Source: an uncultured Methanobrevibacter sp.
GTDB taxonomy: Archaea > Methanobacteriota > Methanobacteria > Methanobacteriales > Methanobacteriaceae
Length of the DNA stretch: 43,164 nt
Direction: 5' to 3'
Assembly: GCF_905235195.1 (NCBI RefSeq)
Contig: NZ_CAJOKH010000033.1
Span: 1-43,164, forward strand
A model generated the notes under the pieces. That model had not been told where the DNA came from and did not search any database. It saw only the letters and a program-made list of their open reading frames with translations. Shown here piece after piece: positions 5,361 to 12,937 of this stretch (positions within the stretch are counted from its first letter, which is position 1; each line of letters starts with the position of its first letter). The position numbers and the translations under genes were made by a program.

Positions 5361-6479
5361 TTAAATATCCAAGGATTTAATATCCTCCGGATTAAATCTA
5401 ATTAAAACTTGTCTTGAATTTCCCCGGACACCCTTACCCGTAAGTTTTGTGTCTATTAATCTTAAAAATTCTAGTTTATCCAGGGTTCTGTTAAATGTGG
5501 CATAACTTAAACCAGTACTATTTTTAAATTTTTCAGATAATTCTCCTGCAGTTAAGACTTTATTATTTTCTGCAATTATTTTTAATAATTGTCTTTCAAC
5601 ATCACTTAATGATTTATAAGTTTCTACAAGATTAACTGAAACTTGTTGATTTTTTGCCTGTTTGAGATAGTCTAATGTAATTTTAGGTGATGCATTTGAC
5701 TCTGCAATATTACCACATACCTTTAATAAATCTATACCTACTCTTAAATCTCCACTATCTAATGCATAGTCAGTTATCTCTTCAAGAATTTCATCTGATA
5801 TTACACCTTCAAAGAAACCAGCTTTTGCTCTTTTAGTTAAAATTTCTAAAAGTTCTAATCTAGAATATGGTTGGAAAACAATATCCTGAGGTATAAAAAC
5901 AGTGTTAACATTTTTATCCAATGCATATTTAAATTCTAAATCTGATAATATAACAAATAAACCTGTCCTAACACCAGGAAATTCCTCGTAAGCTCTAAGT
6001 ATATCATAAAATAATTTATTAGCATTATTACCTTGGAAAAGATAGTTAACATCGTCAAATGCTACGATTAATGATTTATCTTCTTTTACTAAATGATCCA
6101 TGACTTGCTGATAAATTTTAGAATAAGGAACCCCAGTTTCTGGAGGATTATGTTTAAAAATCTTATTAAATATTTGGGACATAATACTAAATGGAGTTGT
6201 GTGAAGCTGACAATTAATAAAACAACAAACAATCTTATTTGAAGTTTGCTCAACTAGTTCAAATACTTTTTTAACTGCTGTAGTTTTACCAGTTGCACAT
6301 GGCCCCATGATTATAGAATTTACAGGCCTTCCTTCATGTAATGCAGGTCTAATAGACATAGCCATTGCTTCCATTTGACTGTCCCTAAATTCAAAATCTT
6401 GAGGAGTATAATCTGGATTAAAAACCATACTATTTCTGAAAATTGTTTCATCATGCATTAAAATATCTTCAATTCCCAT
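5361..6479 (-). CDS. cdc6: Cdc6/Orc1 origin-recognition initiator
   Basis: A 372-residue AAA+ initiator. Walker A GPCATGKTT is at residues 59-67; the Walker B strand LIVAFDDVNYLF has D142-D143, where many relatives have Asp-Glu. Sensor 1 is near VILSDLEF, sensor 2 is SGDLRVGIDLL, and a C-terminal winged helix follows (LTAGELSEKF...LSYATFNRTLDKLEFL). It binds origin DNA and loads MCM. The start is ATG at 6479 behind a strong GGGGGATT. The position next to archease matches the MTH1599 type of M. thermautotrophicus, which carries two such genes; a second copy would be expected elsewhere in this genome. Confidence 0.95.
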   Translation of the reverse strand: MGIEDILMHDETIFRNSMVFNPDYTPQDFEFRDSQMEAMAMSIRPALHEGRPVNSIIMGPCATGKTTAVKKVFELVEQTSNKIVCCFINCQLHTTPFSIMSQIFNKIFKHNPPETGVPYSKIYQQVMDHLVKEDKSLIVAFDDVNYLFQGNNANKLFYDILRAYEEFPGVRTGLFVILSDLEFKYALDKNVNTVFIPQDIVFQPYSRLELLEILTKRAKAGFFEGVISDEILEEITDYALDSGDLRVGIDLLKVCGNIAESNASPKITLDYLKQAKNQQVSVNLVETYKSLSDVERQLLKIIAENNKVLTAGELSEKFKNSTGLSYATFNRTLDKLEFLRLIDTKLTGKGVRGNSRQVLIRFNPEDIKSLDI

Positions 6480-11056: not shown

Positions 11057-12829
11057 TTATGCTCTTTTTTTAACAACTATCTTAGCGTTTTTAGATAATT
11101 TTACTCCAGCTATGTTTACAGAAACTTTAGCTTTATAAACGCCAGGATAATAATGAATTCCTAAACTTGCAATACCTTTACTATTAGTTTTAATCTTATA
11201 AGTATATTTAGAAACTTTAACAGTAATAAATTGGCCTGCAATCGGAGCACGTTTATATTTTAAAGAAACATAAAACCTTTTAGATGATTTATAAACTTTA
11301 ACTAAATTTTTAACTGTTAATTTAGTTAAAGATTTTTTCCATTTTTTAACAGTTACAGTAGACTGTTTTTTAACACTAGTCTTAGGAATAGTAGTTACAA
11401 CTTTATAGGTATTAGGTTTTAAATTAATTGCTAAATATGCTAAACCTTTTTTATTAGTAATAAGCTTATGAGTTTTACCATTAATTTTAACATTAACAGT
11501 CACACTAGCTTGAGGTACATCAGCAGAATTCACTACTTTAACTACAAGTTTTGTACCATCAGCATAATACATATTAACATTTTTAACTATTAATTCTAAA
11601 TCCGTACCCTTTTTAACTTCAAAATTCTGACTTGCAGAAGAAGCATTATATTCACTATTACCTAAATAATTAGCAGTAATCAAATAAAGACCTGCAACAG
11701 AAGGATTCCAATTATAACTAAATAAACCTTTATTTAAAGTTAAATTAGTATTAACAACAACAGCTCCAGAAGCTAAGTTTTTAATTAATAACTGAACACT
11801 ACCATCAACATCAGCAAAATTAACATTAGTTATAGGTACAGGCCCAGAAGGAGAAACACCACCATTAATATTGATAGCTTTACCAACACTAGTACTATTA
11901 CCACTCTTAATAGTAGTATCAGTAGGAAGTGGCTCCCCACCAGTAACTTCAAAATACTGACTTGCAGAAGAAGGTTCATATTCACTAGTACCTAAATAAT
12001 TAGCAGTAATCAAATAAAGACCAGCAACAGAAGGATCCCAAGAATAACTAAATGAACCATCTTCGTCTAAAGTTAAATTAGTATTAACAACAACATTACC
12101 AGAAGCTAAGTTTTTAATTAACAACAAAAGATTACCATCAACATAATCAGGTGAAGTAACACGACCATCAATATGTATAGGTGTACCAACACTAGTAGTA
12201 TTACCACTATTAATAGTAGTATCAGTAGGAAGTGGCTCCCCACCAGTAACTTCAAAATCCTGAATTGCAATAGAAGATCCATATTCACTAGTACCTCGAT
12301 ACTCAGCAGTAATCACATAACTACCAGCAACAGAAGGATCCCAAGAATAACTAAATGAACCCTCTTCGTCTAAAGTTAATTCAGTCCTAACAACAACCTC
12401 TCCATCCTTTCGAACTTCTAATCCAAGATCACCTTGACAAACAGGCATTAAATCGCTACCTATAACAACACCCTTAATATCGATAGGTTTACCAACATAA
12501 GTACTACTTTCACTTGTAATTTTAGTCGTAGTCCTCTCATTATTAGCATCAGTATCCAGACTTGCAGATGAAGAATCATCATCAGAATCAGTCACATCAA
12601 CACCATCATCAGTATCTTCTCCAACTACCTCAGAATCTGGCATATTATTTCCATCCTCAGTATCCTCATCAACTACCTCAGAATCTGGCATATTATTTCC
12701 ATCATCAATATCCCCATCATCTATTGTAGCATCTGGTAAATCAGATTTAGCAATATCCATATCACTATCAACAGCTGATATTGAAGATATTGAAACAAAT
12801 ATCATTAACACTAAAAATATAAAAAACAT
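11057..12829 (-). CDS. Secreted adhesin-like protein with Ig-like repeats
   Basis: A 590-residue secreted protein: hydrophobic signal region (FFIFLVLMIFVSISSISA), an Asp-rich stretch with a duplicated DGNNMPDSEVV unit, three Ig-like repeats of about 100 residues (each with a SVGK/T-P-I-type start, FSYSWDPSVAG-LYLITANYLG centre and SQ-x-FEV end), then two basic C-terminal domains (TNKKGLAYLAINLKPNTYKV; TNSKGIASLGIHYYPGVYKA). There is no C-terminal membrane anchor. Such proteins decorate the surface of host-associated Methanobrevibacter. The ATG at 12829 has no ribosome site; a better start (ATG at 12848 behind GGAGGATAATTTAGTA) is out of frame by one base in an A8 tract (12829-12836). With A7 the product would begin MKFYKKMFFIF, a standard signal peptide. 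Expression may therefore be switched off or variable here. Confidence 0.8.
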   Translation of the reverse strand: MFFIFLVLMIFVSISSISAVDSDMDIAKSDLPDATIDDGDIDDGNNMPDSEVVDEDTEDGNNMPDSEVVGEDTDDGVDVTDSDDDSSSASLDTDANNERTTTKITSESSTYVGKPIDIKGVVIGSDLMPVCQGDLGLEVRKDGEVVVRTELTLDEEGSFSYSWDPSVAGSYVITAEYRGTSEYGSSIAIQDFEVTGGEPLPTDTTINSGNTTSVGTPIHIDGRVTSPDYVDGNLLLLIKNLASGNVVVNTNLTLDEDGSFSYSWDPSVAGLYLITANYLGTSEYEPSSASQYFEVTGGEPLPTDTTIKSGNSTSVGKAININGGVSPSGPVPITNVNFADVDGSVQLLIKNLASGAVVVNTNLTLNKGLFSYNWNPSVAGLYLITANYLGNSEYNASSASQNFEVKKGTDLELIVKNVNMYYADGTKLVVKVVNSADVPQASVTVNVKINGKTHKLITNKKGLAYLAINLKPNTYKVVTTIPKTSVKKQSTVTVKKWKKSLTKLTVKNLVKVYKSSKRFYVSLKYKRAPIAGQFITVKVSKYTYKIKTNSKGIASLGIHYYPGVYKAKVSVNIAGVKLSKNAKIVVKKRA

Positions 12830-12904
12830 TTTTTTTATAAAATTTCATTACTAAATTATCCTCCAAAAAAAAATTTTTAAACATAATATTTTAAGAAAAA
12901 ATAC

Positions 12905-12937
12905 ATTGTATAAAAATTTCTTAAAATATTATACAAT
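12905..12937. promoter_or_regulatory. Inverted repeat in the adhesin promoter region
   Basis: ATTGTATAA (12905-12913) and TTATACAAT (12929-12937) are perfect 9-bp inverted arms separated by 15 bp, about 60 bp upstream of the adhesin start region. This could be an operator; in DNA this A/T-rich it could also arise by chance. Confidence 0.35.

Follow-up and report, generated by a model that had tools for sequence, protein, structure and literature searches.

An off-frame A8 run at the start of an adhesin-like gene in a Methanobrevibacter genome: tentative reading as an incidental slipped-strand allele

Introduction

The nearest precedent for the gene described here is the 5' poly(A) tract of inlA in Listeria monocytogenes: the A7 form is in frame and the A6 form is off, with a stop after residue 8, and reversion has been measured at 5.5e-7 (A6 to A7) and ~4e-8 (A7 to A6) (PMC2831843). 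The same work of Orsi et al. surveyed 5' homopolymeric tracts across prokaryotes, 18 archaeal genomes included (PMC2831843). The repair protein NucS of Mycobacterium smegmatis leaves indels of 1-2 bp unrepaired, which its authors tied to homopolymer-based silencing (PMC11551767). The gene product belongs with the adhesin-like proteins (ALPs) of Methanobrevibacter and Methanosphaera, which share with it a signal peptide, Ig-like Big_3_5 domains, C-terminal CarboxypepD_reg-like repeats and numerous paralogues per genome, and from which it shows no notable difference. Among archaeal systems, the variation of the haloarchaeal virus phiCh1 proceeds by DNA inversion and not by homopolymer slippage. 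Phase variation of phiCh1, which appears in PMC8371274 as a listed reference (Klein et al. 2012), would, as far as that listing goes, resemble the present case in affecting an adhesion protein of an archaeal system and differ from it in residing in a virus. Literature searches of partial coverage on phase variation in archaea or in Methanobrevibacter, on ALP frameshifts and on slipped-strand events in methanogens retrieved nothing relevant.

The gene compared with these systems lies on the minus strand of the window, i.e., the whole analysed stretch of 43,164 nucleotides, which is contig C33 of an archaeal assembly (G000) of 1.89 Mb in 107 contigs. It resembles inlA as a surface adhesin whose frame is lost when an A-run after the start changes in length by one base, the rest being intact and the change reversible in principle. 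However, inlA is known from a population polymorphism with measured reversion, while the present gene is known from one archaeal sequence and the change is +1 instead of -1. If the extra A is real, the gene would work like inlA. With the tracts surveyed by Orsi et al. it shares the position of a poly(A) near the 5' end of a coding gene, in contrast to which the A-runs of G000 and of its sister genome G001 were at or below synonymous expectation. Like the NucS-only mycobacteria, G000 encodes EndoMS/NucS and yielded no canonical MutS, and indels of 1-2 bp may similarly escape repair in the archaeon, albeit the indel-blindness of NucS was demonstrated in M. smegmatis and not in methanogens (PMC11551767). 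If both real and polymorphic, the extra A would represent an archaeal counterpart of the inlA-type inactivation of surface proteins and would suggest that NucS-type repair causes slippage in methanogens; in the case of an assembly error, it stands as a warning against inferring contingency loci from single metagenome-assembled genomes (MAGs). The codon-usage and family-wide tests described below provide a baseline for off-frame A8+ starts, in which no preference for surface genes was visible.

Materials and Methods

The 107-contig source assembly is apparently a MAG. The comparison set included four genomes of the genus (G000, G001, G002 and G003) with one genome per species and a single assembled sequence of the focal locus; the family-wide set consisted of 139 Methanobacteriaceae genomes, drafts included, which may contain errors of their own. 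G000 was sampled as stretches covering ~0.85 of its 1.89 Mb, with gene starts predicted by simple rules, and the scan for comparable start arrangements covered 620 open frames of at least 150 aa, antisense frames included. The null model for A-runs consisted of synonymous codon shuffles in the first 48 nt of genes (n = 325 genes in G000). Seven homologues were compared: G002:C77 (a and b), G000:C13, G001:C8, G001:C24, G003:C28 and G003:C260. In the family-wide survey, the pattern was a Shine-Dalgarno-ATG closely followed by A8+; loci were fetched for part of its matches in the 139 genomes and judged by whole-ORF checks. The weights given below to an assembly error, an incidental allele and a selected switch are judgements, not computed values.

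Results and Discussion

Start region and reading frames

Read on the minus strand, the start region consists of a T9 run in the leader (12865-12873), directly followed by the Shine-Dalgarno motif GGAGG (12860-12864, conserved in the paralogue alignment), a spacer of 11 nt, the intended ATG (12846-12848), AAATTTTAT, the A8 homopolymer (12829-12836) and TG. From this ATG the frame MKFYKKNVFYIFSVNDICFNIFNISC (12768-12848, minus strand) is aborted after 26 codons by a TGA at 12768-12770. An intact adhesin-like frame of 590 codons (11057-12829, minus strand), for which the ORF list gives as start an ATG overlapping the end of the tract (12827-12829), encodes the remainder of the signal peptide, an acidic repeat region, Ig-like Big_3_5 domains and C-terminal CarboxypepD_reg-like repeats. 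A change by one A moves the frame: A8 leads to the early stop, while with A7 in its place the ATG at 12846-12848 reads MKFYKKMFFIFLVLMIFVSISSISAVD and runs into the 590-aa frame, so that by frame comparison the tract is one A above the coding register. The secretion signal peptide, aligned by eye with that of a paralogue, was complete only when read in the A7 register (MKFYKKMFFIFLVLMIFVSISSISA).

Re-reading confirmed in full the positions and frames given in the earlier note for GGAGG, ATG, A8 and the stop after 26 codons, together with its statement that removal of one A joins a signal peptide to a 590-residue adhesin whose downstream frame contains no stop. Its description of the internal in-frame ATG (12827-12829) was equally accurate: this codon is located 30 nt from GGAGG, lacks its own Shine-Dalgarno site and leaves out the basic n-region present in the paralogues. 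Another in-frame ATG, at codon 24 of the open frame, lies close to the stop at 12768-12770 and could yield at most a signal-less product.

The focal gene was the sole case in the ~0.85 Mb scanned of an off-frame Shine-Dalgarno-ATG with a homopolymer whose long frame had no Shine-Dalgarno start nearby, and the arrangement is therefore not background noise. The ATG at 12846-12848 is supported as the intended start.

Encoded protein

The model PF16640 (Big_3_5) matched three stretches of the adhesin with an E value of 1.9e-23, CarboxypepD_reg was matched as well, and Ig-like, beta-rich repeat domains, a feature of Methanobacteriales adhesin-like proteins, were present; the curated NCBIfam models gave no match to the focal protein. 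The C-terminal domain was common to ~11 ORFs of G000 (22 matching stretches), which is consistent with dispensability of the focal adhesin: the gene is probably dispensable as one of many adhesin genes. The acidic N-terminal region contains an intragenic 48-bp tandem repeat in 2.5 copies (12603-12723, minus strand), in which a change of copy number keeps the frame and which could allow variation in adhesin length by recombination.

Homologues, coding register and upstream repeat

In a related rumen MAG, a paralogue (G002:C77, 1241-3010, minus strand) starts with MKNLSKFFIVFLVLITVVSISSISAAD after its own GAGG-ATG. This signal peptide and the A7 reading of the focal gene were equal in length and aligned without gaps, which identifies A7 as the coding register and means that the assembly has one A too many. 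In a second paralogue from the same contig (G002:C77a, 3464-5488) the distance between GGAGG and ATG was 11 nt as in the focal gene (GGAGGATATATTTAGAATG). The tract itself was not conserved: none of the seven homologues had a run of at least seven A after the start. Beyond the genus, a DNA search with the focal 5' region over the 139 family genomes produced weak AT-rich matches only; scanned viral contigs had no match to the exact tract flank, and the contig search for the focal gene in public genomes matched the paralogue contig (OMVX01000088.1) and found no second strain.

Upstream of the Shine-Dalgarno motif there is an inverted repeat (12882-12933, minus strand) with 17-bp arms at 12882-12898 and 12917-12933 (TATAATATTTTAAGAAA and TTTCTTAAAATATTATG, one mismatch). 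Similar inverted repeats precede G002:C77a (5495-5541, 19-bp arms) and the homologue in G000:C13 (just upstream of 22842, 18-bp arms), with 21-33 nt between their ends and the ATG. A strict form of the pattern matched only the focal site, on both strands because it is palindromic, and the G002:C77 site in the four genus genomes, in which the reversed control had no matches. The repeat is a probable shared operator or promoter dyad. The alternative of a leader RNA hairpin was rejected: its z score of -1.9 was dominated by the AT-rich inverted repeat, which is better read as a DNA operator. With the frame free of stops and the Shine-Dalgarno motif, start and upstream repeat all kept, the focal gene is not visibly decaying.

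Codon usage and A-runs at gene starts

Lysine at the gene starts of G000 was encoded by 522 AAA and 88 AAG codons. Runs of at least seven A were found in 27 of 325 gene starts against 27.8 expected from the synonymous shuffles, and runs of at least eight A in 5 against 6.8 expected. In the sister genome G001 the observed numbers were lower than expected in each class: 32 against 40.8 for A>=7, 5 against 11.2 for A>=8 and 0 against 4.5 for A>=9. Since the A-runs were at or below synonymous expectation, there is no excess to explain in either genome. Long A-runs at gene starts are not kept as switches and, if anything, are seemingly avoided in G001; the focal A-run is an ordinary one, arising from lysine codons.

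A proposed incidental slipped allele

Our preferred explanation, held tentatively, is that the extra A represents a +1 slipped-strand allele that arose incidentally and recently and could in principle revert, and not a tract selected as a switch. The n-region Y-K-K-M, encoded as TAT AAA AAA ATG, would produce A7 from preferred lysine codons, and insertion of one A by replication slippage, the simplest cause, would have converted A7 to A8 in the sampled genotype. Ribosomes starting at the Shine-Dalgarno-ATG would then reach a stop 26 codons on, the adhesin with its signal peptide would presumably not be made, and the probable dispensability of the gene would explain why the A8 allele is tolerated. 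We infer a real extra A, lost expression and a capacity to revert. The gapless A7 match to the G002:C77 paralogue and the 590-codon frame without a stop argue for this explanation, as do the numbers of A-runs at gene starts, equal to the shuffle expectation in G000 and lower in G001, the apparently good assembly of long A/T runs in G000, and the presence of a second off-frame A8 in a beta-helix surface protein gene from another genus (L240, see below).

G000 encodes EndoMS/NucS. Its sole match to MutS domain V was a 649-residue protein combining this domain with a helix-hairpin-helix and free of other MutS domains, and a canonical MutS was not found in G000. Because NucS is present, canonical MutS was not found and NucS is indel-blind in M. 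smegmatis, uncorrected slippage is plausible. What weighs against an incidental allele is the reliance on a single assembled sequence, for which the indels in conserved genes described next make a consensus error credible.

Possible assembly error

An error of assembly or consensus, or a merging of strains, is a serious possibility, to which we give a somewhat lower rank: the organism would have A7 and express the adhesin normally from the Shine-Dalgarno-ATG. In favor of it are the fact that A7 is the conserved register and the nature of the 107-contig assembly, which is apparently a MAG and includes a contig with an ABC transporter of probable eukaryotic origin. In the conserved genes common to G000 and G001 (352 kb of sampled stretches), 9-10 apparent frame-breaking indels were counted in G000 against 2 in the reverse comparison (Fisher p ~0.07, using 9); the ten loci correspond to ~9 separate genes, some of them read antisense. 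They are located at L131:17352, L138:4751, L138:6622, L110:5725, L130:9603, L113:16111, L120:7230, L134:16184 and L141:14416. The elevated indel load of G000 looks like assembly damage, and two of the indels, on contig C9, resemble one-base changes in short A/T runs. However, the others were mostly of 2-10 nt and none was at a run of eight or more. Furthermore, ~91 A/T runs of at least 8 were present within ORFs of at least 150 aa in G000, at most two of which were flagged as a possible frame switch; the one of the two with inspected flanks resembles a gene junction or an antisense reading, and no run was demonstrated to be a break (upper 95% bound of ~4% for 0/91 broken runs). Likewise, none of the 27 A/T runs of at least 8 in conserved coding sequence was at a detected break. 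A length error exactly at A8 is thus possible but would be atypical of this assembly.

The contig with the transporter (G000:C93, locus L061) encodes an ABC_membrane/ABC_tran protein with long glycine- and lysine-rich inserts, is eukaryotic-looking, perhaps from a rumen protist, and is probably a contaminant of the assembly.

A selected switch as an unlikely reading

It is unlikely that the gene is an evolved phase-variable contingency locus, in which selection would maintain A7/A8 slippage and the adhesin would be on or off in sub-populations. The location of the tract at the very beginning of a gene for a surface protein, the intact downstream frame, a mismatch repair that is likely indel-blind and the second off-frame A8 adhesin from another genus would fit such a locus. 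Against it, the homologues are free of the tract, A-runs of at least 8 at gene starts do not exceed the codon expectation, no other gene in the ~0.85 Mb has the same arrangement, and A7/A8 is short for fast switching, as illustrated by the inlA rate of ~4e-8 from A7 to A6 (PMC2831843).

The family-wide survey adds to the points against a switch. Of the fetched A8+ starts, 58 kept the frame and 6 were off frame; two of these six were dropped: L061, from the probably eukaryotic contig, and L254, where the pattern is inside a gene and not at a real start. The remaining off-frame tracts accounted for 2 of 25 surface-type genes, i.e., those with a hydrophobic N-terminus, and for 2 of 37 others (Fisher p = 1.0, on small numbers), the in-frame counterparts being 23 and 35, respectively. 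The off-frame fraction of ~6% (4/62) among the examined A8+ gene starts mixes errors and real alleles. The surface-type pair consists of the focal gene and the striking case of L240 (G017:C127:15388-15499), from another genus of the family, which reads GGAGGTGAAAATA-ATG-TTT-GT-A8 with 15 codons before a stop, and whose shifted frame encodes a signal peptide and a beta-helix surface protein. The other two, L223 (A9) and L284, are not adhesins. L223 (G100:C70 and G103:C28) goes off frame at A9 right after the start, the local sequence being identical in the two genomes, and, with a primase-like gene beside it, is probably a provirus gene.

The focal tract has one feature of contingency loci, the movement of the frame by one unit, but membership in the class fails on three others that were tested: tracts were not in excess over sequence composition in G000 or G001, off-frame tracts were not concentrated in surface genes family-wide, and the tract was not conserved in the homologues compared. 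Of the reversible OFF state, as opposed to decay, proposed in the earlier note, the absence of visible decay held up, with frame, start and inverted repeat kept, and the idea of a dedicated switch did not, on the same three grounds. We similarly doubt the broader proposition that surface proteins of methanogenic archaea undergo poly(A) phase variation aided by an indel-ignoring, NucS-type repair, with L240 as an independent second case.

Recoding and internal start as improbable alternatives

Rescue of a fixed A8, by loss of one A through RNA polymerase slippage or by a +1 shift of the ribosome along the A-run, is very improbable: A8 could permit slippage in principle and the downstream frame is intact, but the homologues are free of the tract and hence give no sign of a conserved recoding site. 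Hardly any weight is given to translation from the internal ATG with A8 as an untranslated leader, since this codon, although the first ATG of the open frame and still before the hydrophobic core, has no Shine-Dalgarno motif in range and would give a product deprived of the basic n-region, while the upstream ATG has the same spacing as in G002:C77a.

Other surface-protein genes

A separate observation concerns five surface-protein genes, two in L098 (G000:C50) and one each in L102 (G000:C27), L137 (G000:C35) and L203 (G001:C3), which have no usable ATG or GTG before the signal peptide; one of them has TTG. They have in common a GAGGTG motif with ATT or ATA ~5 nt beyond it (e.g., GAGGTGTTAAAATT AAG AAT), which suggests that these genes may use non-canonical ATT/ATA starts.
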